DNA from: an uncultured Ectothiorhodospiraceae bacterium
Lineage (GTDB): Bacteria > Pseudomonadota > Gammaproteobacteria > UBA6429 > Thiohalophilaceae
Reading direction: 5' to 3'
Length of the DNA: 64,000 nucleotides
NCBI GenBank assembly: GCA_947258695.1
Contig: CAMYJG010000002.1
Location: 118,179 to 182,178 of the forward strand
Part shown: positions 7,565 through 42,037 of the stretch, one piece after another
Position numbering within the stretch: the first letter of the stretch is position 1
How the letters are laid out: every line of letters begins with the position of its first letter
Made by a program: the position numbers and the translations under genes
The notes under the pieces: model-generated
Databases searched by the model: none
What the model was told of the DNA's origin: nothing
Seen by the model: the letters and a program-made list of their open reading frames with translations, nothing else

Positions 7565-8668
7565 TTAATCTTCATCTGTTTTAATACCTGTTAATGAACC
7601 GTAATAGTTCAGTGATGAAGAATCAGGGATAAGTTCGCGCATTAATTCACTCAAAGACATATCACCCCATTTAACTGCTTTGTCCAGGGCGTATGAGATA
7701 GGAGAGTGAGGTTCAGTTTTGCGAAAGAAGTCAGATATTTCATTTAGACGACGAAATGCATCATCGCGTGTTTGAATCGGGCCTGCGGTACCTTTTGCTC
7801 CAGCTTGTGGAGCGGCAGCTGTGCCGTCAGTATTAAATTCTTCTTCGTTTGAAGATTCATCGGGCAGCTTATATTTTGCCACGTGATTAATAACACCTAA
7901 AGTTGATTCAAGTGCATTAATAATATTACTGGTAGGAGGGGCGTCCATGTTGCCGCAGTGCTCATCCAGCATACGGCTTATCTCACGGTAGTCTTCAAGA
8001 CAACCCGCGACATCATTTTTTAAATTTAGGTAAAACTCTTCGCTAGAGCCGGCAACCACATTTTCAATGTCTTCCAGGTTAAAACCAATTTTACTGGCTT
8101 TTTCAGCACGGTCTTCTTCATCGTTAATTTTTTGAATATCCAGTGCCTGTGTGTATTGCCAGTAGTTAAACGGTCCAGGTTGAACATCTTCAGTAATATG
8201 AGCATTGCGAATGGGGGCTATCAGCACGCCTTCAGCACCTTCACCGTTTAAGCCAGTTAATGAGGAAACGCGTGTTTCGATGCCGTCTTCATCTGGCAAA
8301 GGATAAAGATTATCCCAGTATTTTTCGATCATTTGGCGGATAATAGAAAAGCCGGCTTTTAAACCCGGAAAACCATAGCGGCGGATTAAGGCTTCGGTAT
8401 ACCAGCTCGCAATTTCGAGATCTTTGGCATTGTTCTTCAGGATTTCAGGTGCTAGCTCTAATATTTTGCGCCAATTTTCGTCGGCTTCTGAGCTGCCCCC
8501 ATCAAACATGCTATTTCGTTCTGCAGCTCGTGCAGAATTTCGTGCATCTTTAATTGAATAGTAGGCTGACGATGGTGATGCATCTTCGCGGATATCGCTG
8601 CCAACCGGGTTATCTTCCGAGACAGGCTCAAGTAAACTGCTAATATCTATAATTGCTTCTGAAGACAT
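7565..8668 (-). CDS. tssA: T6SS assembly protein TssA
   Basis: A protein of 367 residues with the ImpA N-terminal domain: I-S-S-L-L-E-P-V-S-E-D-N-P-V-G-x-D-I-R-E-D, then W-R-K-I-L-E-L-A-P-E-I-L and a W-Y-T-E-A-L-I-R-R-Y-G-F-P-G-L segment. TssA primes baseplate and tail-tube assembly and coordinates sheath growth. The short C-terminal part has a R-x-x-A-F-R-R-L-N-E-I-S-D-F-F-R-K-x-E-P-H-S-P segment, as in the shorter TssA class. It is the first gene of the minus arm. An AGGA motif lies about eight bases before the ATG. Confidence 0.93.
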   Translation of the reverse strand: MSSEAIIDISSLLEPVSEDNPVGSDIREDASPSSAYYSIKDARNSARAAERNSMFDGGSSEADENWRKILELAPEILKNNAKDLEIASWYTEALIRRYGFPGLKAGFSIIRQMIEKYWDNLYPLPDEDGIETRVSSLTGLNGEGAEGVLIAPIRNAHITEDVQPGPFNYWQYTQALDIQKINDEEDRAEKASKIGFNLEDIENVVAGSSEEFYLNLKNDVAGCLEDYREISRMLDEHCGNMDAPPTSNIINALESTLGVINHVAKYKLPDESSNEEEFNTDGTAAAPQAGAKGTAGPIQTRDDAFRRLNEISDFFRKTEPHSPISYALDKAVKWGDMSLSELMRELIPDSSSLNYYGSLTGIKTDED

Positions 8669-9129
8669 TCTCTACATCCTTGTTATTTGGTATATCTGCA
8701 ATCAGATCCATACCAATAAAAACTTACTTCCTAGTAAACAGTGTTTGTGGGAACACTGAATGGTGTTATTTATAAGATATTGCAGGGCGCTTGTCAAAGC
8801 CAGTTTGTGAAATACTTCCGAAATGACACAAATATTTTGGTTTTATTATACCTTCTATATACATTTTACGATAATTAATTCGTGCATTGCCTCCAACATA
8901 TGTTATAAAAATGCCAACTGAAGCACATATAAATCATGTAAGTATTATCAAAAGTGACTTGGAACATATGGCATGTCATTGTATTATGTGCAACAAATAC
9001 AAGAACGCTGGATTGGCTAAAATGTTTAGTTCGTTTTAAATAGCCAGTTTTCAATAAGGATATTCGGTAGTAAAGATTCAGATACTCTCTGAATTAAGTG
9101 ACCGAGCTGTTTATCAGGATGATATTTGT
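8669..9129. promoter_or_regulatory. divergent intergenic region between the two T6SS arms
   Basis: These 461 bases carry no open frame worth calling. Both T6SS arms start here and point outwards, so promoters for both must lie inside or close by. The region is very AT-rich. A 10-base palindrome AACATATGTT sits at 8895-8904 and its half recurs near 8963, which could be an operator. I find no sigma-54 site with correct spacing and cannot place a sigma-70 promoter with confidence. Confidence 0.5.
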
Positions 9130-10722
9130 ATGTCGATAGTCATATCAATCGTAAAGCTACCCGAAGGCGCGGTAGATACAAAAGCTACTCATACTTTCGC
9201 TACCGAAGGCGGAACAATCGGGCGAAGCTCTGATAACACATGGGTACTTGAAGATCCTGAACGTTTTATTTCTTCACAGCATAGTCAAATTAGTTATGAA
9301 AATGGTCAGTACTACATTACTGATCTAAGTACTAACGGTACTTTTTCTAATGGTGCATCGGAGCCCATTGGGAAAGGGAATACAATTCAACTTAATGATG
9401 GTGACAAATTCGCATTAGGTGACTATGAATTCCAGGCAAGTGTATGGCAACCTAACAAACAATCGGCATCGCCAAACCAGGGCCCGTTTGCTGAGGCAGC
9501 TCCGGCTCCACCAATAGAAAATCAAGCAGTAGCCGCTCAGCCTGTTGATAACATGGCTGAACAGGATTATTTTGCCTCTGCCAACTCATCAAGTGTTGAT
9601 AATTTTGCCAGCTCAGTCTCGGGGCATGTGCCAGGTTCTGATTCTTTATTTAGCCCGGAGCCAATGGAAACCGATCCATTAGCCGTGTTAGATAACGCAC
9701 GCCAGGTACCGGGCTTTAATAATTCATTCGAGAGTAATTCTTTTGAGAGTAATTCATTTCCTGATACAAGCATGTCTGATCAGGCTGATCCCTTGCAACA
9801 ATCGGTTAGTTGGCCATCATCGACATTAGAAACCGGCGCTATACCAGAAGATTGGGACCTTAATGATACACCAGCTGCAGCGGTATCGAACAAAGCGAAT
9901 TTTATGACAAATGAAATTCCTGCAGATGCGCCTGTCATAACAAAATCAGAAGATGAAAAGAAAATTGATTTAGAAAAAGCCAATGAAAAGATTCTGGCTG
10001 AGATCGCTGTCTTGAAGAAGCAGGCTCAAAAACAGGCATTACAACAACAAATAGAGAAAAATACCCAGGCTCAGCAAACCCCGAAGGCTGAGCCACAACA
10101 GCAACAGGTCGGACGTACTTCAACTAATCAGGAACAATCATTAATTGCTGCTTTAGGTCTCTCTTCAAATAATTTATCAGATGAAAAAGTCATTGAAATT
10201 AACCAGGTTGTTGGGGAACTGGTACGTGAAACAATAACTGGCATGATGCAGGTGTTAAGTTCACGTAGCACAATTAAAAATGAATTCCGTATGAATGTAA
10301 CAACCATTCAGCCAGTTGAAAATAATCCTTTAAAATTTTCTGCAAACGTTGATGATGCGATTGAGAATATGTTTATTAAAGATGGTAATGCCTATAAAAA
10401 ACCAGTTGAAGCCATTAAAGAAGGTTTTGAAGGCATAGCGGAGCACCAGGTCGCGATTCTGGCTGGAATTCGCACTGCATTTAAAGGTGTTATTAACAGG
10501 TTCGATCCAGATACTTTAGAAAAACGGTTTGAACAATTCAATAAGCCTGGAATTATTCCTGGTATGACTAAGGGAAAAAATTGGGAGTCCTATAAGCATT
10601 ACTATCAGGAGCTTGTAGATGATATGGATAATTCATTTCAACATTTGTTTGGTTATGAGTTTGTTCAGGCATATGAAGAGCAGTTACAAAAACTCGCGAT
10701 TGCTCGCAAAACACAAAATTAA
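9130..10722 (+). CDS. tagH: T6SS-associated FHA-domain protein TagH
   Basis: A protein of 530 residues. Residues about 27-100 form an FHA phosphothreonine-binding domain with G-R-S-x-D-N-x-W, S-S-Q-H-S-Q-I-S-Y, and D-L-S-T-N-G-T-F. A long low-complexity linker (about 110-300) is rich in Ala, Pro, Gln and Ser and includes a tandem S-F-E-S-N repeat. A charged coiled-coil stretch follows at about 275-315. The C-terminal 200 residues match the T6SS FHA C-terminal domain, with S-R-S-T-I-K-N-E-F-R and N-P-L-K-F. In Pseudomonas and Agrobacterium this protein (Fha) relays the PpkA/PppA phosphorylation signal to the secretion apparatus. It is the first gene of the plus arm. Confidence 0.94.
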   Translation: MSIVISIVKLPEGAVDTKATHTFATEGGTIGRSSDNTWVLEDPERFISSQHSQISYENGQYYITDLSTNGTFSNGASEPIGKGNTIQLNDGDKFALGDYEFQASVWQPNKQSASPNQGPFAEAAPAPPIENQAVAAQPVDNMAEQDYFASANSSSVDNFASSVSGHVPGSDSLFSPEPMETDPLAVLDNARQVPGFNNSFESNSFESNSFPDTSMSDQADPLQQSVSWPSSTLETGAIPEDWDLNDTPAAAVSNKANFMTNEIPADAPVITKSEDEKKIDLEKANEKILAEIAVLKKQAQKQALQQQIEKNTQAQQTPKAEPQQQQVGRTSTNQEQSLIAALGLSSNNLSDEKVIEINQVVGELVRETITGMMQVLSSRSTIKNEFRMNVTTIQPVENNPLKFSANVDDAIENMFIKDGNAYKKPVEAIKEGFEGIAEHQVAILAGIRTAFKGVINRFDPDTLEKRFEQFNKPGIIPGMTKGKNWESYKHYYQELVDDMDNSFQHLFGYEFVQAYEEQLQKLAIARKTQN

Positions 10723-18790: not shown

Positions 18791-21415
18791 ATGAACGATA
18801 AAGATAAAAGTAATCCAGCTAATCCATCAGCAAATAATGATGATAAAACAGTATTTCGCGGTATTGATGCGACTCGTGTTAAACAAAAAAAGCCAGAACA
18901 AAAAAATTCAGCTGATAATAAGCAGGATGCTACACAAATTAAATCTCGGACACAAAATACTGCACCGGATTCTACTAGGCAGGATGCAACCCAGTTTAGA
19001 CCTCGCACACAAACTCCTAAGCCAGATGCAACCCGTGTTGCACCAGCCAGGAGTCCTGCCCAGGTAACGCCTGCTGCAACTCCCGCATCAACAACTACTA
19101 CTGATACCCATCAACAAGGTGCGGTAGCACAACACCAGGTTCTAAAGGATCGTTTTTTATTAGAGAAAGTACTCGGCGTTGGGGGAATGGGAGTTGTTTA
19201 TAAAGCAAGAGACCGTTTGAAGGTAGAAGCGCAGGATAGAGACCCTTACGTCGCAATCAAAGTATTGAGTGAAGAGTTTAAGACTCATCCAGAAGCCTTT
19301 ATCTCTTTACAGCGAGAGTCAAGAAAATCACAGCGTATTGCACATCCCAATACTGTGAAAGTGTATGATTTTGATCGCGATGGCGATACTGTATTCATGA
19401 CGATGGAATACATGGATGGTAAACCGTTAGATCAATTGATTCGACAGTATAAAGCGACGGGCTTACCTCATGATGACGCCTGGGAAATTATCGATGGTAT
19501 GTGTTCAGCATTAATTCATGCTCATGCAGAAAATATCGTTCACTCAGATTTTAAGCCCGGTAATGTCTTTATTACAGGGAATAGCATGGCGAAAATATTT
19601 GATTTTGGTATCGCCAGGGCTGTAGCAAATGTTGACAGCCTTGAACCCAAGTCAGGTGACAGAACTGTATTTGATGCCGGCAATTTAGGTGCTTTAACCC
19701 CGGCTTATGCCAGTTATGAAATGTTGCAGGGTGAAACACCGGATGTTCGTGATGATATTTATGCCCTGGGTTGCGTTATTTACGAGATTCTCACTGGAGA
19801 ACATCCGTATAACAAGGTACCTGCTGATGAAGCCTATAATCGCGGCCTAAAAGTTAAAAAAATACAGGGTATAAAAAATCGCCAGTGGAAGGCAATAGAA
19901 AAATCACTGGCATTAAAACGTGAAGACAGATCGCCGTCGGTAGAACAGTTTTATAAAGATTTAACCTATACCTATAAGCCTGGCGCGAAAAGTGTTGCCG
20001 CGTTATTTTTATTTTTGGCTGTAAGTGTTACTGCCTATGTACAGACAATAGGAATACAAGGGCCTTCTTTTTCAGAATCTGATATCAGAAATGAGCTGGA
20101 ATATAAAATACGCCTGGACTTGTTTCAGTCTGAAATAGCAAAGCTTATTGAAAACCCAACTTTCTCGATTGATTGGGAAGAAAATATCTGGACTGAATAT
20201 AGCGGTATTTCTACGTTATTAAATAATTCGGATGATGAATGGCTTGCTAAAACAAAGAATACTATATATGGACTCTATATAAATCAGGTACATACCTTTA
20301 TTAAAGATAAACGTTTTGCCAGGGTGCAAATAGTTATTAACAACGGCTATCGATATGCTAATGATCGTGCAGAGTTGGATAACGCGCAAACTATGCTCGC
20401 CGCGGCAATTGAAAAAAACAATAAAAATAAAGCATTAGCGTTAAATAACCGACGCCAGCAAGAAAAAATACGTCAGGAAAATAAAAAGGAAGAAAAGAAG
20501 AGAATTGACAGTTTCAATCTGGCACTGAAAAACGTAAATCACCAGCTCAAATGTCAGGGACGTTTAAATATGCGTGATTTTGATGTCGCCGTTAAAAAGC
20601 TGCGTTCATTGGATCGTCCAAGATATAACGCTATAGAAAAGAAAATAGTCAATACGTTAGCAGCATGTATTACGCAAGTCGGTAAGTTACGTCCAGAGCG
20701 GGCAACCGAATCAAAAAAATACGCACAACGTATATTTAAACGTAACCGCACCATAGCCTCAATAAAAATTATGCCGCGTGATGCCTGTGACATTTCAATT
20801 GCAGGTTTGGGTTCACGAGGCAAAAGAACGATGTGTCGTGACAAGTTAACAGGCTTGAATTACGGGCCACCACTGGTTGTCATACCACCTAATCAGAATA
20901 TTAAAGCATTTGCATTAGGTAAGTATGAAGTTTCAGTTAAAGAAATTAACGAATTTTGTAAAAGTACTAATTCTTGCGCAGTAAAAAAAGTAGATAGTAA
21001 TTTACCTGCAACCGATATTTCAATTTCTACCGCCAAGGAATATCTGAAATGGTTAAGTAAAAAAACCAGGCAAAAATACCGCTTACCGACCAAGCATGAA
21101 TGGGTTTACGCAGCACGTTCAAAAAGGACAGTTCGTGATCCTAATCGTAATTGCCAAATGAGTACCCGTGGAATATCAAAAGGTAATGAGTTAGTTAAAG
21201 TTACAACCGGAAAACAAAATCCATGGGGTATCGTTAATTACCTGGGTAATGCCAGGGAATGGGTCTATGGGAATGGTAGAAATTTAATCGCAATGGGTGG
21301 TTCCTATAAGGATGCCATGGATAAATGTGACGTCACCTTATCTTTATCACATTCAGGTAATGCAGATAGTCTCAGTGGTTTTCGTGTGTTACGTGAAGTA
21401 AAAGAAAGAAATTAA
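18791..21415 (+). CDS. ppkA: T6SS Ser/Thr protein kinase PpkA with C-terminal FGE-like domain
   Basis: A protein of 874 residues. Residues 1-115 are a disordered tail with five repeats of the form D-[A/K]-T-x-x-[R/K] (Thr20, 28, 48, 67, 81). The kinase domain (about 120-385) has G-V-G-G-M-G-V-V-Y, catalytic Lys157, H-S-D in place of H-R-D with catalytic Asp253, and D-F-G at 271. A membrane segment follows at about 400-420, then a Lys-rich coiled-coil-like stretch. Residues about 690-872 form a periplasmic formylglycine-generating-enzyme-like domain (Y-E-V-S-V-K-E, R-L-P-T-K-H-E-W, G-N-A-R-E-W-V, S-G-F-R-V-L), a known sensor-like fusion in some PpkA proteins. It activates T6SS by phosphorylating Fha or TssL. 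Confidence 0.93.
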   Translation: MNDKDKSNPANPSANNDDKTVFRGIDATRVKQKKPEQKNSADNKQDATQIKSRTQNTAPDSTRQDATQFRPRTQTPKPDATRVAPARSPAQVTPAATPASTTTTDTHQQGAVAQHQVLKDRFLLEKVLGVGGMGVVYKARDRLKVEAQDRDPYVAIKVLSEEFKTHPEAFISLQRESRKSQRIAHPNTVKVYDFDRDGDTVFMTMEYMDGKPLDQLIRQYKATGLPHDDAWEIIDGMCSALIHAHAENIVHSDFKPGNVFITGNSMAKIFDFGIARAVANVDSLEPKSGDRTVFDAGNLGALTPAYASYEMLQGETPDVRDDIYALGCVIYEILTGEHPYNKVPADEAYNRGLKVKKIQGIKNRQWKAIEKSLALKREDRSPSVEQFYKDLTYTYKPGAKSVAALFLFLAVSVTAYVQTIGIQGPSFSESDIRNELEYKIRLDLFQSEIAKLIENPTFSIDWEENIWTEYSGISTLLNNSDDEWLAKTKNTIYGLYINQVHTFIKDKRFARVQIVINNGYRYANDRAELDNAQTMLAAAIEKNNKNKALALNNRRQQEKIRQENKKEEKKRIDSFNLALKNVNHQLKCQGRLNMRDFDVAVKKLRSLDRPRYNAIEKKIVNTLAACITQVGKLRPERATESKKYAQRIFKRNRTIASIKIMPRDACDISIAGLGSRGKRTMCRDKLTGLNYGPPLVVIPPNQNIKAFALGKYEVSVKEINEFCKSTNSCAVKKVDSNLPATDISISTAKEYLKWLSKKTRQKYRLPTKHEWVYAARSKRTVRDPNRNCQMSTRGISKGNELVKVTTGKQNPWGIVNYLGNAREWVYGNGRNLIAMGGSYKDAMDKCDVTLSLSHSGNADSLSGFRVLREVKERN

Positions 21416-27383: not shown

Positions 27384-27400
27384 AGCACTATCTTAGTGCA
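27384..27400 (+). promoter_or_regulatory. NtrC-type enhancer site 1
   Basis: AGCACTATCTTAGTGCA is a 17-base palindrome with arms GCACTA and TAGTGC around a 3-base centre. This is the layout of the NtrC site (TGCACCA-N3-TGGTGCA), with one base changed symmetrically in each arm. Its centre is about 140 bases upstream of the start point predicted from the sigma-54 promoter at 27506, like the upstream NtrC site of the glnA promoter in enteric bacteria. Confidence 0.6.
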
Positions 27401-27423
27401 ACGCATTTCGGATTGTCTATCAA

Positions 27424-27440
27424 TGCACTATATGTGATCA
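27424..27440 (+). promoter_or_regulatory. NtrC-type enhancer site 2 (weaker)
   Basis: TGCACTATATGTGATCA has a strong left arm (TGCACTA) and a degraded right arm. It lies 40 bases after the first site, about 100 bases before the predicted start point. Paired strong and weak sites are usual for NtrC, which binds cooperatively. On its own this site would not be convincing. Confidence 0.4.
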
Positions 27441-27505
27441 CGACTAAGCAGACTCACCTATTTATTATCGTAATAAATCATAGAGTTAGGGATTATTTTT
27501 TGTCA

Positions 27506-27521
27506 TGGCATATTCATTGCT
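27506..27521 (+). promoter_or_regulatory. sigma-54 (-24/-12) promoter for the ATP-grasp/gltB operon
   Basis: TGGCATATTCATTGCT matches the sigma-54 consensus TGGCAC-N5-TTGCW. The GG (27507-27508) and GC (27519-27520) are exactly ten bases apart, and TGGCA and TTGCT are both intact. Transcription would start near 27532, about 96 bases before the ATG at 27628. The two NtrC-like sites upstream give this match strong context. Confidence 0.7.
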
Positions 27522-27627
27522 TCGTTGTAAATCATACATCCTTTATGTAGTGGATATGTGGAATTGCTATTAACGAGGAAGCACCACGCTGACCTGATTT
27601 TAGCCATGAATTTGATATTAATTGCCA

Positions 27628-29067
27628 ATGAAAATAAAATGGAAAGAATATAAAACCGGTGAATATTTTGACGAATTGATCGGTTCCTCTGGTCGCGCTC
27701 GTAAATCAGCTAGATCCATTAGTAAGTATCTTTCCTCACTTCGTGACAGTGAACTTCTAGATCGAAGCCAGGCAGCTGAACTTGCCATGCATGTTATGGG
27801 AATCACATTTACTGTTTACAATGAAGGGACTGGGATCGATCGGACCTGGCCCTTTGACATTATTCCACGTGTCATTTCGGCTCGCGAATGGACACGTACT
27901 GAAGCAGGGCTTAAACAACGCGTTAAAGCATTGAATTGTTTTATTAATGATATCTACCATGAACAGAACATTATTAAAGACAAAATTTTTCCTGCTGAAG
28001 TTTTAGCGGAGTCTTCAAATTTTCGTCAACAATGTGTAGGTATAACACCAGCCTTTGGAATATGGGCACACGTTTGTGGTTCTGATCTGGTTCGCGATAA
28101 GGATGGGACTTTATATGTCCTTGAAGACAACCTGCGTGTACCTTCAGGTGTGTCTTATATGATGGAAAATCGCATGGTGATGAAACGTGTCTTTCCCGAA
28201 TTATTCGAAGACTACAATATTCAACCTGTCGATGATTATACAGCTCGGTTATTCGATACACTGGCTTCAATATCTCCTCGTCCCGCAGATTATCCAACTA
28301 TCGTTGTACTCACACCTGGAATTTATAATTCAGCATATTTTGAACACTCTTATCTAGCACAACAAATGGGGGTGGAACTTGTTGAAGGCAAAGATCTCGT
28401 TGTTGCGGAAGACGATTGTGTATACATGAAAACCATACAAGGCCTTGAAAGGGTAGATGTAATCTATCGAAGAGTTGATGATTTATATTTAGATCCTGAA
28501 GTATTCAATCCAGAATCTACAATAGGTGTGCCAGGTCTTATCAAAGCTTGGCGAAAAGGTAATGTTGGAATTGCCAATGCACCGGGTGCAGGTGTTGCTG
28601 ATGACAAGGTTGTCTATGCATTCGTTCCTAAGATGATTGAATACTATCTTGGTGAAAAAGCAATTATCCCAAATGTACTGACTTATCTTTGCATGGAAGA
28701 AGAAGAGCGTCACTATGTATTAGATAATCTTGATAAGCTGGTTATTAAACCTGCAAATGAATCGGGTGGTTATGGGATGTTAATCGGCCCTAATTCAACT
28801 AAGAAAGAGCAGGCTAAATTTGCCAAGTTAATTAATAAGAATCCTAGAAATTATATTGCTCAACCGACATTAAGTCTTTCGACAGCACCAACTTTATGTG
28901 ATGGGAAATTAGAACCGCGACATCTTGATTTACGTCCTTTTATTTTGTCAGGTGAAGATAGTTATGTAACACGCGGTGGTTTGACTAGGGTTGCCTTAAA
29001 AAAGGGCTCGCTGGTTGTCAATTCATCACAAGGTGGTGGAAGTAAAGACACATGGATAGTTGAATAA
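27628..29067 (+). CDS. circularly permuted ATP-grasp protein
   Basis: A protein of 479 residues of the circularly permuted ATP-grasp family. Diagnostic segments are P-F-D-I-I-P-R-V-I, L-K-Q-R-V-K-A-L-N, V-L-E-D-N-L-R-V-P-S-G-V-S-Y, A-Y-F-E-H-S-Y-L-A-Q-Q-M-G-V-E-L-V-E-G, V-I-Y-R-R-V-D-D and the end V-N-S-S-Q-G-G-G-S-K-D-T-W. ATP-grasp enzymes join a carboxylate to an amine or thiol using ATP; the substrate of this family is not established. Start: ATG at 27628; a TTG at 27622 is possible and no strong ribosome site decides. It is followed at once by an alpha-E gene, its usual partner. Confidence 0.9.
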   Translation: MKIKWKEYKTGEYFDELIGSSGRARKSARSISKYLSSLRDSELLDRSQAAELAMHVMGITFTVYNEGTGIDRTWPFDIIPRVISAREWTRTEAGLKQRVKALNCFINDIYHEQNIIKDKIFPAEVLAESSNFRQQCVGITPAFGIWAHVCGSDLVRDKDGTLYVLEDNLRVPSGVSYMMENRMVMKRVFPELFEDYNIQPVDDYTARLFDTLASISPRPADYPTIVVLTPGIYNSAYFEHSYLAQQMGVELVEGKDLVVAEDDCVYMKTIQGLERVDVIYRRVDDLYLDPEVFNPESTIGVPGLIKAWRKGNVGIANAPGAGVADDKVVYAFVPKMIEYYLGEKAIIPNVLTYLCMEEEERHYVLDNLDKLVIKPANESGGYGMLIGPNSTKKEQAKFAKLINKNPRNYIAQPTLSLSTAPTLCDGKLEPRHLDLRPFILSGEDSYVTRGGLTRVALKKGSLVVNSSQGGGSKDTWIVE

Positions 29068-29082: not shown

Positions 29083-30072
29083 ATGATTATTCTTTCACGA
29101 GTTGCAGAAACAATTTACTGGATAGCTCGTTATATCGAGCGAACTGAAAATACTGCACGTATCATTATGGTGAATGCCAATCTTCTAATGGACTTGCCTA
29201 AAGGTATTGCGCCGGGCTGGGAACCAATACTAGCTATAACAAGCTCAACTGATCTATTTTATGAAAAATATGAGGAATTAAATGAACGCAATGTCGTTAA
29301 ATTCATGACGATAGATAAAACAAATCCGGGTTGTATTTTAAATTCCCTAGAAAAAGCAAGAGAAAACCTCAGAACAACACGTGCCATTATGCCACGTGGA
29401 TTGTGGGAAGTAGTCAATGATCTGCATTATTATGCTGAAGAAAACAAAGCAAAAGGTTTGTCTCGTAAAGGTAGACATGAATACCTTATTCACATTATTA
29501 GATCCTGCCAACTCGCTACCGGAACTATCAGTAGTTCTATGAGCCATGATTTGACATATGAATTTGTAAGACTTGGAAGAAACCTTGAAAGAGCAGATAA
29601 TATTACTCGCGTAGCGGATGTGCGAGCTGGTAATCTATTACCTGATGTTGATGAGGAATTAAAACCTTTCGATGATATTCAATGGAAAAGTATTCTTGAA
29701 ACACTAGCTGCGTATCAAATGTATCGTCGCCATATTAACCATAGAGTAAAAGGTACAGCTGTTCTAGCTTATCTACTACAGGACAAACAATTCCCACGTT
29801 CTTTTACACACTGTCTCAACGAATTAGAAAACTGCTTAAAGCAACTCCCTGAAAACGATGCGCCACTTCGTACTCTTGGTCGGTTGCAACGCCTGGTAAA
29901 TGAAACTAATGTAAGTGATATCAGAGGAACTAAACTTAATCAACACATGAACGAATTACAAATTGTACTTGCACAGTTACATAATCAATTGACTATTGCT
30001 TATTTTGATGTGGAACATATAAATGCAAAAACAACAGATATTAATGATCTTAATCAGGTTATAACACTATAA
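29083..30072 (+). CDS. alpha-E domain protein (DUF403)
   Basis: A protein of 329 residues, mostly helical, of the alpha-E family. The start L-S-R-V-A-E-T-I-Y-W-I-A-R-Y-I-E-R-T-E-N-T-A-R is nearly invariant. Later blocks are A-R-E-N-L-R-T-T-R, F-x-x-L-G-R-N-L-E-R-A-D-N-I-T-R and Y-Q-M-Y-R-R. The gene pair is widespread and often lies beside a transglutaminase-like or Anbu-type peptidase gene, none of which is present here. It probably works with the ATP-grasp protein to make or handle a small peptide-like product. Its stop is one base before the gltB start. Confidence 0.9.
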   Translation: MIILSRVAETIYWIARYIERTENTARIIMVNANLLMDLPKGIAPGWEPILAITSSTDLFYEKYEELNERNVVKFMTIDKTNPGCILNSLEKARENLRTTRAIMPRGLWEVVNDLHYYAEENKAKGLSRKGRHEYLIHIIRSCQLATGTISSSMSHDLTYEFVRLGRNLERADNITRVADVRAGNLLPDVDEELKPFDDIQWKSILETLAAYQMYRRHINHRVKGTAVLAYLLQDKQFPRSFTHCLNELENCLKQLPENDAPLRTLGRLQRLVNETNVSDIRGTKLNQHMNELQIVLAQLHNQLTIAYFDVEHINAKTTDINDLNQVITL

Positions 30073-30073
30073 C

Positions 30074-33000
30074 ATGACCTCATCGCTATACGATAAAAAC
30101 TTTGACAAGGATAACTGCGGTTTTGGGCTTATTGCGCAAATGGATGGCGAGCCTAGCCATTGGTTAGTTCATACTGCTATCAAAGCCTTATCACGCCTAA
30201 CACACCGTGGTGCCATTGCCGCTGATGGTAAAACAGGCGACGGCTGTGGCATTTTAATGAAAAAACCTGACGATTTTTTTCGTGCGATATGCCCGGAACA
30301 AGCTATTAAACTTGGTAATCTATATGGCGTTGGGATGGTATTTCTCAATCAGGATGACACATTAGCAGACCGCGCAAGACATCGACTTGAAACGGAATTA
30401 AAGGCAGAAGGATTCGACGTTGCAGGTTGGCGCTCCGTGCCTGTTAACAATGAAGTTTGTGGTGAATATGCATTGTCAATTTTGCCAAAGATCGAGCAAA
30501 TTTTTGTCAACGCTCCCACTGGTCTTGATGCAAAATCCTTTGATCGGCATTTATATATCGCTCGGCGTCGGGCAAAAAAGAATATTAAACAAAAAGACAG
30601 TACATTTCATGTTGTAAGCTTGTCATCCACGGTTATTTGTTACAAGGGACTGGTTTTACCGCATAATCTTCCCCTTTTTTATACTGATTTAAATGACGAG
30701 CGACTGACGTCTTCCCTTTGTGTCTTCCACCAACGTTTTTCAACAAACACATGGCCCGAATGGCGTTTGGCGCAACCTTTTCGCTATCTTGCACATAATG
30801 GTGAAATCAATACTATACAGGGAAACCGCAACTGGGCGCAGGCAAGAAGTTACAAGTTTGATACTGATTTAATACCAGATATGGAAGACATCCGCCCATG
30901 GGTGTCCATGTCGGGTTCAGATTCCTATAGCTTGGATAACATGTTAGAAGCTTTACTCGCTGGTGGTATGGACTTGTTTCTGGCGATGCGCATGCTTATC
31001 CCTAGAGCATGGCAAAACATGAAATCTATGGAACCAGACATCCGCGCATTTTATGAATATTATTCTATGCATATGGAGCCATGGGATGGCCCGGCTGGAA
31101 TCGTATTAACAGATGGACGTTATGCAGCATGTGTCATGGATCGGAATGGATTACGTCCAGCACGGTATGTCATCACCAAAGATCGACATATTACACTTGC
31201 TTCAGAAATTGGTGTTTACGATTATTTGCCTGAAGAAGTCGAAAGAAAAGGGCGTTTACGCCCAGGCGATATGTTTGCAGTTGATACCCTGAATGGCAAA
31301 TTATTATTACCGGAATACATTGATGATGAATTAAAATCCCGTTTTCCCTATAAAAAATGGCTCGAGGAAAACGTTACCTATTTAGAATCATCACTTGATG
31401 AAGAAGATGCCTGTAACATCGCAATGGATCCTGCACACCTGGAGGTATATCGAAAGTTATATCTCCTTAGCAATGAAGAAATGGAACAAATCATTAAGGT
31501 ATTAGCCGAAGGGGGGCAGGAAGCCATCGGCTCAATGGGGGATGATACACCATTCCCTGTTTTTTCAAGAAAAAGTCGCAACCTTTATGATTACTTTCGA
31601 CAACAATTTGCACAAGTAACAAACCCTCCAATTGATCCTTTGCGCGAAAGTATCGTTATGTCTTTGGAAACCTGTTTTGGTAATGAACAAAATCTGTTTC
31701 AACATAATGCCGAACACGCGGTTAGGATCGTCGTAAATAGTCCGGTTTTATCTGTTAGTAAATTCAATCAATTACTATCTAATAAAGATCATCGTTTCAC
31801 ACATGCTTTTTTAGATCTTTATTATGAGGATAGTGTTGAATTGAAAACTGCCATTCAACAGATTTGTGATGCTGCAGTAACGTCTGTAAATGATGGCGCA
31901 AAAATTCTAATTTTAAGTGACAAAAACATAAAACAGGGTTTTACACCCATACATGCTTTAATGGCCACAGGTGCAATTCATCACCATTTAATAAATGAAG
32001 GTTTACGTTGTGATGTAAATATTGTTGTTGAAACAGCAACAGCAAGAGATCCCCATCATTTTGCTGTTTTAATTGGTTACGGGGCTTCAGCTGTCTTTCC
32101 ATATCTGGCATATGACTGTGTTTGTCACATGATTGATAATGATGAGTTCAACGAAACAACTGCAAGCCATGCAGTTCAGACATATCGTAAAGGAATTAAT
32201 AAAGGTTTATATAAAATACTCTCTAAAATGGGAATATCAACAATAACCAGTTACCGTGGTGCACAGTTATATGAAGCTGTTGGTTTAAATAGTGAAGTCA
32301 TTGATTTATGTTTTACAGGAACAGTTAGTCGTATTGAAGGTACTGGATTCGCCGAAATTGAGAATGAGCAGAATACTTTATCCAGAAAAGCATGGTTAAA
32401 CAGAAGCAAAGTAGAACAAGGCGGTTTACTTAAATACTTACATAATAGTGAATATCATGCATACAATCCCGATATTATTAGCACCCTCCATCAGGCCGTT
32501 AACTCTGGTAGTTATGATGATTATTTAGTTTATTCAAACCTGGTAAATACCAGACCTGTCACCGTGATACGCGATCTACTTGGTATAAAGGAAAATACTA
32601 AAGCAATACCGGTTGATACAATAGAACCTGCTGAAAACATATATAAACGTTTTGAAACGGGAGCCATGTCGCTTGGAGCGCTGTCACCAGAGGCACATGA
32701 AACATTAGCAATGGCAATGAATAGACTCGGCGGTCGCTCCAATTCAGGTGAGGGTGGGGAAGATCCAGAACGCTACAATACTGATCGAAATTCTAAAATC
32801 AAGCAGGTTGCATCAGGTCGTTTCGGAGTTACACCACACTATCTGGTAAATGCCGAAGTAATACAGATTAAGGTCGCGCAAGGCGCCAAACCGGGTGAAG
32901 GGGGACAACTTGCGGGGCAAAAAGTTGACAAGTTAATCGCCAGATTGCGCTTCGCAACCTTGGGAACACCACTAATCTCGCCACCACCGCACCACGATAT

Positions 33001-34525
33001 TTATTCAATTGAAGATTTGGCACAACTTATTTTTGACTTGAAACAGGTGAACCCTGATGCCCTGATATCAGTAAAACTGGTTTCAGAGCCTGGAGTTGGA
33101 ACAATCGCAGCTGGTGTAACCAAGGCATATGCAGATCTAATTACTATATCCGGTTACGATGGTGGCACAGGTGCAAGTCCCATCACATCTGTTAAATATG
33201 CCGGAAGTCCGTGGGAATTAGGTTTAAGTGAAACACAGCAAACACTACGTGCAAATGATTTACGTGACAAGGTGCGCATCCAGATTGATGGTGGATTAAA
33301 AACAGGTCTTGATGTAGTAAAAGCAGCAATTCTCGGTGCAGAAAGTTTTGGCTTTGGTACACCTGCCTTGCTTGCAATGGGTTGTAAATATCTACGAATA
33401 TGCCATTTGAATAATTGCGCTACGGGTGTTGCGACTCAAAACGATTATTTACGTATTCATCATTTCAAAGGTGATGTCGAAAAAGTGATGAATTATTTTA
33501 AATTTTTAGCCAGAGAAATTCGTGAATGCATGGCATTGCTTGGAGTACAACAATTTACAGATTTGATTGGACGTTATGATTTACTGGAAATTCTTCAGGG
33601 AGAAACAGCAAAACAATTACGACTAGATTTGACACCATTGTTGTATGAATCTGAGGATTGTACGTCCAAACCCCGTTACTGTACTACAAAGAGAAATGTT
33701 CCCTATGACAAAGCTGAGCTGGCAGAAAAAATACTTACTGATGCACTGCCTGCAATAGAAAATCGTTTGACAATGCATCTGTCATACAACATACGGAATG
33801 ATAACCGTTCTATTGGCGCGCGATTATCTGGAGAAATTGCAAAACGATATGGTAACCAGGGTTTTGCAAGTACACCATTGATCGTTCGATTTAATGGCAC
33901 TGCCGGGCAGAGTTTTGGTGTATGGAATTGTGGAGGCTTACATCTGTATCTTGAAGGCGATGCAAATGATTACGTTGGCAAGGGAATGACAGGTGGCAAG
34001 ATTATTATTAAACCGCCAGCATCTTCATGTTTTAACAGCCAGGAGAATACGATTATCGGCAATACCTGTATTTACGGCGCAACAGGTGGATCACTTTACG
34101 CTGCCGGAGTGGCCGGTGAACGTTTAGCGGTAAGAAACTCAGGAGCAACGGTAGTAGTAGAAGGGACGGGTGACCATTGTTGTGAATATATGACGGGTGG
34201 TGTAGTAACAATATTAGGAAATGCAGGCATAAATTTCGGTGCCGGTATGACAGGTGGGTTTGCATTCGTACTTGATTTGGACAATACGTTTGTTGATCAT
34301 TATAACCACAATATCGTCGATATACACCGGATTGATACTGAACAAACCGAAGCTCATCGAAACTATCTTAGAAAAACAATTGAAGACTTTATCAACGAAA
34401 CGAACAGTATCTGGGCCAAACAGATTCATGCTGATTTTAAATCGTATGTAGGAAAATTCTGGTTAATTAAACCGATTACTGCAAGTCTGGATAGTATCAT
34501 TGAATCAATGGAACAAGCAGCATAA
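30074..34525 (+). CDS. gltB: glutamate synthase (NADPH) large subunit
   Basis: A protein of 1483 residues that makes two glutamates from glutamine and 2-oxoglutarate. The N-terminal glutaminase domain has its nucleophile Cys17 in D-N-C-G-F-G after a short propeptide. The synthase domain has L-G-A-L-S-P-E-A-H and the FMN-binding G-G-T-G-A-S-P. The 3Fe-4S cysteines lie in G-C-K-Y-L-R-I-C-H-L-N-N-C. The C-terminal GXGXG beta-helix domain is present (repeats such as G-x-T-G-G and G-N-T-C-I-Y-G-A-T-G-G). Length and domain order are normal. Its partner gltD is not downstream but about 6 kb away on the other strand. Confidence 0.98.
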   Translation: MTSSLYDKNFDKDNCGFGLIAQMDGEPSHWLVHTAIKALSRLTHRGAIAADGKTGDGCGILMKKPDDFFRAICPEQAIKLGNLYGVGMVFLNQDDTLADRARHRLETELKAEGFDVAGWRSVPVNNEVCGEYALSILPKIEQIFVNAPTGLDAKSFDRHLYIARRRAKKNIKQKDSTFHVVSLSSTVICYKGLVLPHNLPLFYTDLNDERLTSSLCVFHQRFSTNTWPEWRLAQPFRYLAHNGEINTIQGNRNWAQARSYKFDTDLIPDMEDIRPWVSMSGSDSYSLDNMLEALLAGGMDLFLAMRMLIPRAWQNMKSMEPDIRAFYEYYSMHMEPWDGPAGIVLTDGRYAACVMDRNGLRPARYVITKDRHITLASEIGVYDYLPEEVERKGRLRPGDMFAVDTLNGKLLLPEYIDDELKSRFPYKKWLEENVTYLESSLDEEDACNIAMDPAHLEVYRKLYLLSNEEMEQIIKVLAEGGQEAIGSMGDDTPFPVFSRKSRNLYDYFRQQFAQVTNPPIDPLRESIVMSLETCFGNEQNLFQHNAEHAVRIVVNSPVLSVSKFNQLLSNKDHRFTHAFLDLYYEDSVELKTAIQQICDAAVTSVNDGAKILILSDKNIKQGFTPIHALMATGAIHHHLINEGLRCDVNIVVETATARDPHHFAVLIGYGASAVFPYLAYDCVCHMIDNDEFNETTASHAVQTYRKGINKGLYKILSKMGISTITSYRGAQLYEAVGLNSEVIDLCFTGTVSRIEGTGFAEIENEQNTLSRKAWLNRSKVEQGGLLKYLHNSEYHAYNPDIISTLHQAVNSGSYDDYLVYSNLVNTRPVTVIRDLLGIKENTKAIPVDTIEPAENIYKRFETGAMSLGALSPEAHETLAMAMNRLGGRSNSGEGGEDPERYNTDRNSKIKQVASGRFGVTPHYLVNAEVIQIKVAQGAKPGEGGQLAGQKVDKLIARLRFATLGTPLISPPPHHDIYSIEDLAQLIFDLKQVNPDALISVKLVSEPGVGTIAAGVTKAYADLITISGYDGGTGASPITSVKYAGSPWELGLSETQQTLRANDLRDKVRIQIDGGLKTGLDVVKAAILGAESFGFGTPALLAMGCKYLRICHLNNCATGVATQNDYLRIHHFKGDVEKVMNYFKFLAREIRECMALLGVQQFTDLIGRYDLLEILQGETAKQLRLDLTPLLYESEDCTSKPRYCTTKRNVPYDKAELAEKILTDALPAIENRLTMHLSYNIRNDNRSIGARLSGEIAKRYGNQGFASTPLIVRFNGTAGQSFGVWNCGGLHLYLEGDANDYVGKGMTGGKIIIKPPASSCFNSQENTIIGNTCIYGATGGSLYAAGVAGERLAVRNSGATVVVEGTGDHCCEYMTGGVVTILGNAGINFGAGMTGGFAFVLDLDNTFVDHYNHNIVDIHRIDTEQTEAHRNYLRKTIEDFINETNSIWAKQIHADFKSYVGKFWLIKPITASLDSIIESMEQAA

Positions 34526-34543
34526 TAATAATTGGATTATAAT

Positions 34544-37099
34544 ATGAATGGTACAAGTTACACTTTAGAAGTCCAGCCAAAAATACCGCACCAGCTTAAC
34601 CGACTTGAAGAACTGGCGAATGATCTTTATTACAGTTGGTCAACACAAGTTCGTGCGCTTTTTTATTATATGCATCCTGATTTATGGCTTGACTGTACGC
34701 ATAGTCCAAAACTTTTTCTTCGTCGCATTTCTCAACACAGACTGAATAAAGCTGCAAATGACCAAACATTTCTGAAAAGTTATCGATTAGCATTAGCTGA
34801 TTATGATAATTATCTTAATGAACCCGGCTATCTACAGCAAAAAGGCTTGATTGAGAATGATAGTGATCTCATAGCCTACTTTTCGATGGAATTTGGTTTT
34901 CACGAAAGTGTACCCATTTATTCAGGTGGACTGGGTATTCTGGCGAGTGATCACTGTAAAGCCGCGAGTGACTTATCGCTACCTTTAGTAGCAATTGGTT
35001 TGCTCTATCGGCAGGGTTATTTTAACCAGACAATTGATGGATATGGTAATCAGTTGGCCGAATTTAAAGATACGGATTTTTCCAGCTTACCGATATCGCC
35101 AGCAAAAGACGTTCATGGTCATGATATTTATGTAACAATAGATGAAGTACCTGATCCGATTAATCTGCGTGTATGGAAAGCTAAAGCGGGAAGAATAACA
35201 TTATACCTGCTAGATAGTGATGTGGCAGATAATAGCGAAACCAATCGTACAATTACCCATCAGTTGTATGGTGGCGATGATAGTACTCGTATATTACAGG
35301 AAATCGTTCTTGGTATAGGCGGTGTTCGAGCAATCCGCGCATTAGGGTTTACTCCGACGGTTTGGCATATTAACGAAGGACATGGTGCTTTTCAAATTAT
35401 CGAGCGGTGTCGCGAATTAACAAACGATAGACTTCAGTTTGATACGGCAATTGAGGCCGTTGCTGCAGCAACTGTGTTCACTACACATACTCCTGTACAA
35501 GCGGGCCATGATATTTTTAGTGCTGACCTTGTACGTTCAAAACTTGAAAAATTTTCCTCTGATATAGGCCTTACATTTGACGAATTTTTTAACATGGGTT
35601 CAAGTCCATCTGCACAAGGTGGATTTAATATGACATCACTGGCACTTCGTGGTTCGCGTTCGCATAATGGTGTTAGTCGAATACATGGTAATGTCGCATC
35701 TGCCATGGAAGCGTACATATGGCCACAAGTTCCCACCAGTGAAAATCCGATTGGTTACGTAACAAACGGTGTTCATTTTTATAGTTTTATTGCACTCGAA
35801 TGGCGAAATTTGTTTGATATGGAATTTGGCCACGAATGGCGAAATCAACTTAGTAATAGTGAATACTGGAATTGTATTGATAACATTCCGGATTACAGTT
35901 ACTGGAGTACGCGACAAATACTCAAGTCCTATCTTTTTAAAGATACAGCGAATCGAATCACCACGCAATTTCAACGTAATGGGAGTAGTCCTGTTGACCT
36001 TGAACGAACAATACGTTATTTAAATCCAGCGAACACAAATACACTTGTCATTGGTTTTGCACGTCGATTTGCGACATATAAGCGTGCTGCCCTGATATTT
36101 CGTGACCCAGATCGTCTTGCTCGCCTGCTTAACGATCCAGACAAACCTGCCATCTTTCTATTCGCCGGAAAAGCACACCCTAGTGATATACCGGGGCAAC
36201 AATTAATTCACTTAATCTATTCACTTTCACAAGAGGAAAGATTCCAGGGTAAAATAATTTTACTGGAAGGTTATAACATGGCGATGGCCAGACGACTCGT
36301 TACAGGTGTTGATGTCTGGTTAAACACGCCGGAATACCCTCTGGAAGCAAGTGGTACATCAGGACAAAAGGCAGGACTCAATGGTGTTGTTAATCTCAGT
36401 GTGCTCGATGGCTGGTGGGATGAAGGATTCAATGGTGAAAATGGTTGGGCTATCAATCCACATCCTGCCAGTCACCATGATGAAAGAGATCATATTGAAT
36501 CACAGACTCTTTTTGATATATTAGAACATCATGTTATACCGACATATTATGATAAAGAGGGCATGGGTTACTCACAAAATTGGATAAAACTCTCCAAGGC
36601 ATCGATGAAATCAATACTACCTAATTATAATTCGCAACGAATGTTAATGGATTATATTAAAAATTATTATACACCGGCCAATAAACAAGGAAAGATTCTC
36701 AGTGGAGATGACTATAAACCTGCAATTGATCTTGCTGCCTGGAAACACAAAATCCACCATCATTGGTCCGATGTAATAATACGTCGTTTAGACGAGCCCA
36801 CTTTGGAAATTGAAACAGGGGACTCGGTTCCTATCCTGGTAGGAGTTGATCTAGGTGAACTACAGGCAAGTGATATTATTGTTGAGTGCCTTGTTGGTCG
36901 TGAATCATCTACAGGAGAACTGCAGATCGATGAAACATTAGTGCTAGAACCACATAATATGATTGAAAGCGATGAGATGTTATTCAGGCTTGACCTGACA
37001 CCGAAACTGGCGGGTTTGCAACACTATAAACTCAGGGCATACCCTTATCATGAATTACTCACTCACCGATTTGAGTTGGGTTATATGATTTGGTTATAA
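34544..37099 (+). CDS. glgP: alpha-glucan (glycogen) phosphorylase, GT35 family
   Basis: A protein of 851 residues. It belongs to the shorter archaeal/bacterial phosphorylase type with an N-terminal DUF3417 segment (L-x-x-L-A-N-D-L-Y-Y-S-W). Other blocks are Y-F-S-M-E-F-G-F-H-E-S, I-Y-S-G-G-L-G-I-L-A-S-D-H, W-H-I-N-E-G-H, F-A-R-R-F-A-T-Y-K-R-A and the PLP-lysine region E-A-S-G-T-S-G-Q-K-A-G-L-N-G. It releases glucose 1-phosphate from glycogen or maltodextrin. I choose the ATG at 34544 with a GGA ribosome site 7 bases before it; a TTG at 34532 is an alternative. It lies 18 bases after gltB. Confidence 0.93.
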   Translation: MNGTSYTLEVQPKIPHQLNRLEELANDLYYSWSTQVRALFYYMHPDLWLDCTHSPKLFLRRISQHRLNKAANDQTFLKSYRLALADYDNYLNEPGYLQQKGLIENDSDLIAYFSMEFGFHESVPIYSGGLGILASDHCKAASDLSLPLVAIGLLYRQGYFNQTIDGYGNQLAEFKDTDFSSLPISPAKDVHGHDIYVTIDEVPDPINLRVWKAKAGRITLYLLDSDVADNSETNRTITHQLYGGDDSTRILQEIVLGIGGVRAIRALGFTPTVWHINEGHGAFQIIERCRELTNDRLQFDTAIEAVAAATVFTTHTPVQAGHDIFSADLVRSKLEKFSSDIGLTFDEFFNMGSSPSAQGGFNMTSLALRGSRSHNGVSRIHGNVASAMEAYIWPQVPTSENPIGYVTNGVHFYSFIALEWRNLFDMEFGHEWRNQLSNSEYWNCIDNIPDYSYWSTRQILKSYLFKDTANRITTQFQRNGSSPVDLERTIRYLNPANTNTLVIGFARRFATYKRAALIFRDPDRLARLLNDPDKPAIFLFAGKAHPSDIPGQQLIHLIYSLSQEERFQGKIILLEGYNMAMARRLVTGVDVWLNTPEYPLEASGTSGQKAGLNGVVNLSVLDGWWDEGFNGENGWAINPHPASHHDERDHIESQTLFDILEHHVIPTYYDKEGMGYSQNWIKLSKASMKSILPNYNSQRMLMDYIKNYYTPANKQGKILSGDDYKPAIDLAAWKHKIHHHWSDVIIRRLDEPTLEIETGDSVPILVGVDLGELQASDIIVECLVGRESSTGELQIDETLVLEPHNMIESDEMLFRLDLTPKLAGLQHYKLRAYPYHELLTHRFELGYMIWL

Positions 37100-37133: not shown

Positions 37134-40100
37134 ATGTCACAAACAGAAAAAGCAATAGAAGCTAAAACCTTGTTATCTGAAGAACGTGTGCGATTAATAA
37201 AGCATATAAACCTTCAACTAGCTGCACTTGATCAACCTTTTTTTAAAGATAATGAAGAACATGAATATCTTGGTATTGCGGATGATTTATTACGCAATTA
37301 CAGACAACAGAAAAAACTTCTAGTAAACTATCGCTGTCCTGTTGATAAACGAATCCAGAGTTTTCTAAACGACTATTTGAAGAAAAACGGGATAAATGCA
37401 AACATCTCGTTGCCGAGCTCAACGTTCGTCTTAGATAAACCTCATCTTGCTCGTGAACTATCATTGCCACCAGATGGCAATCACTATTCATCAAAATATG
37501 TTAACTCCTACCGCTTAGTGCAGGGAATTCTAAATAATCCTGTTAAAGACCGCCGTACTACTAAAGGCGTATTTCATATTGTTGAAGGTGGTTTACCTAT
37601 TCCTGCTGGTAAAAAGTCGGTTCCAGTAAATGTCTATCATAAACTCCTGCAACATGCTTTTAATCCACCTGATGAAATCATGAACCTTCCCTATACAGGT
37701 TCACAGAACGAACACGCAAAATTATGGGTGTCTCTATTAATGAGACCAATGGTCTACCCGGAAGTACCAGGAATTTTATCGGACAAAAGCCTGGAAACAC
37801 GATTTTTTGCTCCAGGTAGCCTGGTATCCAATCTTGACTTTGTCGAAAGGATCTTTGGGAATGCGGGCGATCCATGCTTGCCCGAAAATGATGCTGCCCT
37901 GGATTTTGATTCCTGGACTGGTCACACTGGCTGTGTGATTCTTGCACCGCACCTTATCGATCTTCGTGCTAAAGATCTTGGATTGCCATATTATGACGAT
38001 GCCACAGAAACGCAACGATCTGATGGTATGTATTGGAAAGATGAAAATGATTTATATAATGGTGGCCAGGCATTTAAAATAGTATGCCGTGACATGAGTG
38101 GCATTATTGTTACGATAATTGCAGATAATTATTTTGGCTACAGCAAAAAAGAAATCAAATCACAGATCAGCTATTCTGCTAACCTTTATGGTGGAAGTGA
38201 AGAAGAACATTCCGGTGGTGCAATCGCTTTTCCATGTTATAACCTCGGTGATACATTTCAACCGGACGATCGTATAATTAGAGACGTCCACACATTCGAT
38301 GAAATTGCTAATTGTTATAGTGATTCTATTGAGATAAAGGATGAGGGTTATGGCATAGATAAAAACTATCCCGATATTATTTATATCCCTGAAGATACTC
38401 GAATCAATCTACTTAAACAATCAATACGATGGGTTAAGAATGGTAAGACACATCAACTAAAATTGCTGGCAAAACATACCTACATGTATCCATTTGGATA
38501 TAAAATAAGAATGGAAAAACATCCTCGTTCCCCGACATGGCGTTTGATCGGAACCGATGCTGAGGGTACTTTCTGTCACAAGCCCTGTACTGTTTCAGGT
38601 GGAGGGAAGTCCGAAATATCAAAGTCTATATCAGGATCGTTACTATCAGGATCCTTCTTTGTTGCTGATATTGAGGAAGACCTGGATTATGTTGAAGAAA
38701 TATTTAGTAAAGACTATTCACAAAGATTTCAAGACTCGAACTTAAATGTAGATAAACGATCTTTTTTGACTGAAGAGAGATCGCTGGGTTCAAGTATAAA
38801 ATTACTTACACCTTCAGTTGAAGAATATACAGATGAATATAACAAGTGGTTAGAAACTATTCCGCAGCATATTCGAGCACTTGCCTTTATTATCAAGCGG
38901 TTTTACCGGACTGAATGGAAAACTAACTGGCGCAAATATTTCACCGTAGATGTTGTTAATGGTTACCCTGATCACGAATTAAAATTTGATAATAGAAAAC
39001 TAATTGCGAATTATCTTCGAATTGGTAAAGAACAAAATGGCTCATGGAGAATTTACAAATTGCGTCAGGATTTTGTTGGTGCTGATAAAGTACAAATGGA
39101 AGACGATATTACTGTCTCTGCTACCGTTTCTAGCAAGCAATTAAAACATTTGAATCCAGACTATACTAATCCATGCGTCAAACTTGCCATTAATTGTGAA
39201 GCGAAACTATTTCAAAGGCCGGATGATGCAATCCATCGCGGTCTGGATATACAAGCAGAAGCCGATCTTGCTGGTGATGATAATTTTATTTCCAATTTTG
39301 AACCACTTGATAAGGACTTTGCCAAGGAACTATTTGAAGATGCAATCGGATTTGGTAAATTTACCTATTCGATGAGAGATCTCATCAAGACAGCATCACA
39401 AATAGATGAAAAACGATTTTTTGTATCTTCAGCACATCCACGACTTGTAAATGGTAAACCAACACCTAACGTGCGATATCTACAAAAACGCCCAGATATC
39501 GTCAATGCGCGTGATAAATACATTGCTGAGATAGGCGTACGATTTTATCGACGCATAGCCGCTAATGAATCAGTTGTACTGCCGGTCAACGCTGTGTTGC
39601 CAGGCAGACGTAATAATGCGGGCGATCGAAAAAAGAAAATTAGACCACTAGCAGTCTACAACCCGATTCATTACCAGGAATTACCAGAATTGTTTATGGA
39701 CTATGTAAGTAGTCTCACCGGAAAATCGCCATCAACGACAGGAGCGGGATCTGAAGGCGCACTTACAAAAGGACCATTTAATGCTTTATCACCAACAGCA
39801 GATCTTAACAATGCATTAGTTTCTTATATCCTTTGTGGTTACGACGGGTTCAGTTCTGCAGCGGGCTATGTTGGTCCAAACTGCCCGGTTGAGCATGATG
39901 TTAGTTTATTAATACCAGAAATATGGTGCAGGATTCCAGTCGCACAACGCGATGCAGATTACATGATAGAAAAGGGCTACCTGGAAAAATTAAGCGACTT
40001 TGACCATGAGGGTGAAAATATACTGGCAAGTCGGCTAGGTTATCGAATCACAACAAAATTTGTACACGCTTACATGGGTAAAATCTTTGATAACCCGAAT

Positions 40101-40595
40101 GTCGTATTTGATGAAGAAATGCTAAAACCTGAAATTCAGGATATGGATGCATATATTGATGGTATTTGTAATATTGTTGAAGCTCAACAACTAGTTGCAA
40201 GCGAGTATATTACAGATGGTTCAATAGAAAATGCCTGTCCACCTCTAAAGGCTCTCCTCTATATCATGGCGACGGGTGAATACCAGGGAAAAGGTATTGA
40301 ACATCCTGACATTAGAAAAATGTTCACTTTCGATTATTTGACAAACAGTGATTGGTATATTGAACGTTTAAATATCAAACAACAACGTGATATACAGTTA
40401 TGCCAGCGACATATCGACTATATTAATGAATTACTTACATCATCTGTTGAGATTCTGGATGATGCTGAAAAACAAGAATACAGGAATAAACGTTCCGAAT
40501 TAGAAAGTCGACTTATATTTTTAAGTAGTAATGATTATCTATCAAGCCTACATGGGACAATCGGTGCAGACTGGATAGATCACAATATTGAATAA
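37134..40595 (+). CDS. probable pyrophosphate-type PEP carboxykinase (1153 residues)
   Basis: A protein of 1153 residues. Two segments recall PEP carboxykinases: D-N-Y-F-G-Y-S-K-K-E at 331-340, like the metal-binding Y-x-G-x-x-K-K of ATP-type enzymes, and a P-loop S-G-G-G-K-S at 488-493, like S-G-T-G-K-T. Between them is a strongly patterned region (G-H-T-G-C-V-I-L-A-P-H, D-D-A-T, G-G-Q-A-F-K, E-E-E-H-S-G-G-A). The length, nearly twice a normal PEP carboxykinase, fits the PPi-dependent type known from Entamoeba and Propionibacterium. That enzyme interconverts oxaloacetate plus PPi with PEP, CO2 and phosphate. The family call is by motif and size; the role of the C-terminal 500 residues is unknown. 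Confidence 0.62.
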   Translation: MSQTEKAIEAKTLLSEERVRLIKHINLQLAALDQPFFKDNEEHEYLGIADDLLRNYRQQKKLLVNYRCPVDKRIQSFLNDYLKKNGINANISLPSSTFVLDKPHLARELSLPPDGNHYSSKYVNSYRLVQGILNNPVKDRRTTKGVFHIVEGGLPIPAGKKSVPVNVYHKLLQHAFNPPDEIMNLPYTGSQNEHAKLWVSLLMRPMVYPEVPGILSDKSLETRFFAPGSLVSNLDFVERIFGNAGDPCLPENDAALDFDSWTGHTGCVILAPHLIDLRAKDLGLPYYDDATETQRSDGMYWKDENDLYNGGQAFKIVCRDMSGIIVTIIADNYFGYSKKEIKSQISYSANLYGGSEEEHSGGAIAFPCYNLGDTFQPDDRIIRDVHTFDEIANCYSDSIEIKDEGYGIDKNYPDIIYIPEDTRINLLKQSIRWVKNGKTHQLKLLAKHTYMYPFGYKIRMEKHPRSPTWRLIGTDAEGTFCHKPCTVSGGGKSEISKSISGSLLSGSFFVADIEEDLDYVEEIFSKDYSQRFQDSNLNVDKRSFLTEERSLGSSIKLLTPSVEEYTDEYNKWLETIPQHIRALAFIIKRFYRTEWKTNWRKYFTVDVVNGYPDHELKFDNRKLIANYLRIGKEQNGSWRIYKLRQDFVGADKVQMEDDITVSATVSSKQLKHLNPDYTNPCVKLAINCEAKLFQRPDDAIHRGLDIQAEADLAGDDNFISNFEPLDKDFAKELFEDAIGFGKFTYSMRDLIKTASQIDEKRFFVSSAHPRLVNGKPTPNVRYLQKRPDIVNARDKYIAEIGVRFYRRIAANESVVLPVNAVLPGRRNNAGDRKKKIRPLAVYNPIHYQELPELFMDYVSSLTGKSPSTTGAGSEGALTKGPFNALSPTADLNNALVSYILCGYDGFSSAAGYVGPNCPVEHDVSLLIPEIWCRIPVAQRDADYMIEKGYLEKLSDFDHEGENILASRLGYRITTKFVHAYMGKIFDNPNVVFDEEMLKPEIQDMDAYIDGICNIVEAQQLVASEYITDGSIENACPPLKALLYIMATGEYQGKGIEHPDIRKMFTFDYLTNSDWYIERLNIKQQRDIQLCQRHIDYINELLTSSVEILDDAEKQEYRNKRSELESRLIFLSSNDYLSSLHGTIGADWIDHNIE

Positions 40596-40618: not shown

Positions 40619-42037
<1,419 letters not shown>

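Follow-up and report, generated by a model that had tools for sequence, protein, structure and literature searches.

A predicted NtrC-activated sigma-54 promoter in front of a cpATP-grasp/alpha-E operon that includes a second glutamate synthase, an alpha-glucan phosphorylase and a PPi-type PEP carboxykinase

In the enteric glnA p2 promoter, two NtrC sites lie upstream of a sigma-54 element with GG-N10-GC spacing, the far one at -140 and the near one at about -108. Genes for a circularly permuted ATP-grasp (cpATP-grasp) protein and an alpha-E protein have previously been linked to the same kind of control. In Burkholderia cenocepacia H111, I35_5080-5083 encode the cpATP-grasp and alpha-E proteins together with two transglutaminase-like proteins under NtrC and sigma-54, and in the ntrC mutant the DUF404/407 gene was lowered 8.2 fold and the DUF403 gene 9.4 fold (PMC5491218). 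The Anbu peptidase usually shares an operon with the same pair (cpATP-grasp, alpha-E, transglutaminase, Anbu) and, as these citing papers recount the original work, is raised in nitrogen-starved Pseudomonas putida (PMC5666114, PMC6376114). A cpATP-grasp homolog from Yersinia frees phosphate from ATP (PMC6376114), and in the methanotroph Methylotuvimicrobium alcaliphilum a PPi-dependent PEP carboxykinase (PEPCK) has been assigned an anaplerotic role (PMC6860931).

The locus described here lies in a stretch of 64,000 nucleotides (the window) from a genome of 3.2 Mb in 164 contigs. It is very probable that an NtrC-activated sigma-54 promoter here drives a five-gene operon under nitrogen limitation. 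As in glnA p2, there are two upstream NtrC-type sites with the far one at -140, the spacing is GG-N10-GC and the palindrome is of the same class; it differs from glnA p2 in having a degenerate near site, placed at -100, and a target other than glnA. The first two gene families are common to the B. cenocepacia genes, the Anbu operon and the window, but none of the five genes here encodes an Anbu peptidase or a transglutaminase, and gltB, an alpha-glucan phosphorylase and a PPi-type PEPCK are found instead (Table 1).

Table 1. Predicted features of the promoter region and the operon (positions in the window; site centres counted from the predicted start at 27532)
Feature	Position	Strand	Description
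NtrC-type enhancer site 1, AGCACTATCTTAGTGCA	27384-27400	+	Centre -140; exact match to GCACYANNNTRGTGC
NtrC-like site 2, TGCACTATATGTGATCA	27424-27440	+	Centre -100; weaker, one good half-site only
Possible IHF site, AATCATAGAGTTA	27476-27488	+	8/9 specified positions of WATCARNNNNTTR; between enhancers and promoter
Sigma-54 -24/-12 element, TGGCATATTCATTGCT	27506-27521	+	11/11 specified consensus positions
cpATP-grasp, COG2308 type	27628-29067	+	First gene; Pfam PF14403, 562 bits
Alpha-E protein	29083-30072	+	Pfam PF04168, 281 bits
GltB, glutamate synthase large subunit	30074-34525	+	NF008730, 2530 bits (cut-off 1047); second genome copy
Alpha-glucan (glycogen/maltodextrin) phosphorylase, DUF3417 type	34532-37099	+	TIGR02094, 775 bits; PF11897
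PPi-type PEP carboxykinase (by homology)	37134-40595	+	Last gene; phmmer 1128 (8e1u) and 1096 (6k31) bits
GltD, glutamate synthase small subunit	40619-42028	-	Convergent neighbour; TIGR01318, 723 bits

Gene content and conservation of the operon

An earlier note on this DNA had placed gltB and a PEP carboxykinase-like gene in the operon. Both assignments hold and can be refined, as gltB is a second copy and the last gene encodes, judged by homology, specifically a PPi-type PEPCK. This protein of 1153 residues matched the solved PPi-dependent enzymes of Propionibacterium and Actinomyces, 8e1u and 6k31 (AiPEPCK), over nearly the full length. It had no Pfam match and hence none to the ATP- or GTP-dependent PEPCK families, and NCBIfam did not name it either. 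In contrast to the two solved enzymes it sits in an NtrC-type operon together with glutamate synthase (GOGAT), and its dependence on PPi is a prediction. The first gene probably encodes an amide-bond-forming enzyme, in line with the phosphate release from ATP by the Yersinia homolog. The convergent gltD is likely the partner gene, outside the transcript. Contamination or a very recent arrival is unlikely because the base composition of the operon equals that of its surroundings and of other contigs. In the upstream neighbourhood, the product of 18791-21412 carries a protein kinase domain and, at its C-terminus, a domain of the FGE-sulfatase type.

Elsewhere in the genome, the housekeeping gltBD on contig C36 (GltB 65% identical to that of the operon, own gltD adjoining) shows neither a sigma-54 nor an NtrC site within the preceding 500 bp. 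A second cpATP-grasp/alpha-E pair, with a cpATP-grasp 67% identical to that of the operon, lies on C3 in a cluster of the Anbu/transglutaminase type and has no sigma-54 site before the cpATP-grasp gene; an ordinary PEP carboxylase is also encoded. The operon is a set of extra isozymes, probably under nitrogen control. The C3 cluster (L088) also holds two Anbu-like genes, 7916-8752 and 9859-10677, with near-identical N-termini and a minus-strand transglutaminase-like gene between them.

A PPi-type PEPCK is present in 31 of 369 genomes of the class. Among the loci examined, the whole operon was found only in G061 and G201, two genomes of another family, and there too gltD is convergent; some of the other PEPCK loci stopped at contig ends, and absence of the operon from those is unproven. 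The cpATP-grasp proteins of G061 and G201 are 85% identical to that of the window and the GltB proteins 76-79%. The 85% identity is firmer than the cpATP-grasp tree, in which the window gene joins L137 and L138 weakly (87/58). As only one of the seven same-genus genomes searched has any cpATP-grasp gene, and that 68% identical, the evidence for a conserved operon comes from three genomes. A cpATP-grasp fragment beside a PEPCK gene (L135) was set aside for its nearly equal likeness to both paralogs.

The five genes lie on a single strand with gaps of 15, 1, 6 and 34 nt, and their order and orientation are kept in both genomes of the other family, which argues against a unit in which NtrC acts on the first two genes only and gltB, the phosphorylase and PEPCK genes are transcribed separately. 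Such a division has some appeal since gltB elsewhere in the genome belongs to an independent operon and the 34 nt gap precedes PEPCK, but we consider it unlikely, and a single transcript of five genes is the reading followed below.

Promoter elements and the NtrC regulon

The motif TGGCAT-N5-TTGCT with exact GG-N10-GC spacing, on which the earlier note had built its promoter, was confirmed when the coordinates were checked directly (GG at 27507-27508, GC at 27519-27520). The exact pattern occurs once in the 64 kb window against 0.22 expected, and nine times against 5.7 expected when one mismatch is allowed; taken alone, it is weak evidence. The 17-base palindrome of NtrC layout is also where it had been proposed, about 140 bases before the start, and is a near-perfect predicted NtrC site: the strict palindrome is found once where 0.01 matches are expected per window. 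The weaker copy proposed at about -100 is present, but it scores 10/14, a value reached by about 23% of 350-bp control windows, and by itself it is not significant. The arrangement is significant because of the combination of elements, their spacing, their recurrence at nitrogen genes of the same genome and their conservation at the loci L122 and L123. For the first gene, the ATG at 27628 is the most probable start codon, and the leader would then be about 96 nt long. The IHF site is speculative, and its match is not distinctive because an equally good second match overlaps NtrC-like site 2. The window contains a second palindrome, GCACTAAATGAGTGC at 55224-55238, with no sense-side sigma-54 site of at least 8/11.

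In G061 and G201 the sigma-54 elements read TGGCATATTCATTGCA and TGGCATAGTCATTGCA. Between the window, L122 and L123, 14 of the 16 columns of the element are identical (the best of 60 shuffles gave 10), and the rest of the upstream DNA is unalignable. L122 has a clean TGCAC/GTGCA palindrome, TGCACATTTACCGTGCA, at -99 and a half site at -139, and in L123 an NtrC-like site at -98 is the only recognisable one; the ATGCAC of site 2 is kept in all three. The elements are conserved in the orthologous operons, a check that the earlier note had proposed. The stronger of the two enhancer sites seems to have changed place among these genomes, which is what paired enhancers would lead one to expect.

The regulators are encoded in the genome. 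RpoN (sigma-54) is found on C22 by its PF04552 match, and a glnA-ntrB-ntrC region on C7 has NtrB and NtrC equivalogs exceeding the curated cut-offs. According to genome-wide statistics, which comprise pattern searches and a subset of loci, the palindrome GCACYN5RGTGC occurs 17 times, compared to five for the reversed control pattern. Seven of the 17 are paired with a sigma-54 site of at least 10/11, with centres 85-178 bp before the start, and the pairing is far from chance because such sites occur in only about 0.7% of 120-nt stretches of sampled genome DNA. The seven loci are the window, glnA, ntrBC, glnK-amtB, the urease region and two on C4, one preceding a NirB-like protein and the other in a region whose sequence suggests nitrate transport. 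The likeness to glnA can be seen within the genome itself, where the sigma-54 site of glnA is preceded by a palindrome at -138, with another copy lying 31 bp closer to the promoter. Judged by sequence, the window promoter is part of a coherent NtrC regulon.

The genome encodes seven further strongly scoring PF00158 activators that could use the promoter, and in many relatives a sigma-54 site comes without any NtrC-like site that reaches a score of 10. Both would suit a true sigma-54 promoter driven mainly by another activator, with the palindrome incidental or secondary. However, so rare a palindrome sits at the glnA distance, the identical class marks the classical NtrC targets of this genome, and the B. 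cenocepacia data name NtrC (PMC5491218), so that another main activator seems very improbable. It is scarcely credible that the motif is due to chance and a sigma-70 promoter drives transcription: a lone sigma-54 match is not rare and sigma-70-like matches exist, but the latter are at chance level (5 against 4.7 expected), the one at 27612-27640 overlaps the gene start, and it is the sigma-54 element that stands out as conserved across the three genomes.

Under NtrC-activated sigma-54 control, NtrB would phosphorylate NtrC at low nitrogen, and phosphorylated NtrC dimers would bind the strong -140 site and, cooperatively, the weak -100 site to form a higher oligomer. The oligomer would loop to the sigma-54 RNA polymerase at the -24/-12 element and open the promoter, with transcription starting near the predicted position. 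For the products we infer that the phosphorylase and the PPi-type PEPCK would turn stored glucan carbon into PEP, oxaloacetate and then 2-oxoglutarate, which would feed the second glutamate synthase; the PEPCK reaction is reversible and the opposite flux is possible. The promoter is ordinary in kind, and the interest lies in the operon under its control.

cpATP-grasp loci and nitrogen limitation

Among 40 cpATP-grasp loci scanned in other species, several of them from Marinomonas and hence not all independent, 24 have a sense-strand sigma-54 site of at least 10/11 within 300 nt upstream, compared to 36 of 4488 control windows (0.8%). An NtrC score of at least 11 was reached by 11 of the 40 and by 3.9% of control windows. 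Most relatives within the family have no sigma-54 site of at least 8/11 before cpATP-grasp, and G011 has only one, at 8/11. Five family loci (L072, L073, L074, L075 and L077) have NtrC-like palindromes 74-115 bp before cpATP-grasp without a convincing sigma-54 site, which possibly points to a different regulator or to NtrC working together with sigma-70.

In Neptuniibacter and some Marinomonas (L047, L067, L053, L054, L055 and L061), the best NtrC-like palindromes are paired 42-43 bp apart and lie in the leader, at +32 to +94, downstream of the sigma-54 element. This arrangement is kept among several Marinomonas, and downstream NtrC enhancers would be unusual. L047 and L067 have, in addition, a second, divergent sigma-54 element on the minus strand (TGGCTTGAAGCTTGCT and TGGCTTAAAGCTTGCT), about 260 bp upstream of cpATP-grasp, which faces a transglutaminase-like gene and suggests a shared enhancer region.

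The tie of the operon to nitrogen limitation, also drawn in the earlier note, is supported by the regulators, the regulon, the conserved promoter and the published data, and dependence on NtrC at this locus is predicted from them. The promoter is of a known kind, and NtrC control of the gene pair has been described in B. cenocepacia; what is new is how the operon is composed and how widely the sigma-54 link extends. A literature search gave no relevant hit on NtrC in combination with gltB and glycogen phosphorylase. More tentatively, and with considerable doubt, the operon could be a dedicated nitrogen-starvation module in which the cpATP-grasp/alpha-E pair works directly with the second glutamate synthase, for example to make a peptide or amide that contains glutamate, with glucan breakdown and the PPi-type PEPCK providing the fuel, and proteobacterial cpATP-grasp/alpha-E systems could generally serve a sigma-54/NtrC nitrogen economy, of which the Anbu form would be one version.

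The operon illustrates how genes for carbon stores and anaplerosis can stand directly behind a predicted NtrC promoter. Together with the sigma-54 sites at the majority of the scanned loci, the GOGAT-linked version suggests that the product of the widespread cpATP-grasp/alpha-E pair should be sought under nitrogen limitation, and a gene set under a nitrogen switch may help to explain these peptide-ligase-type enzymes.
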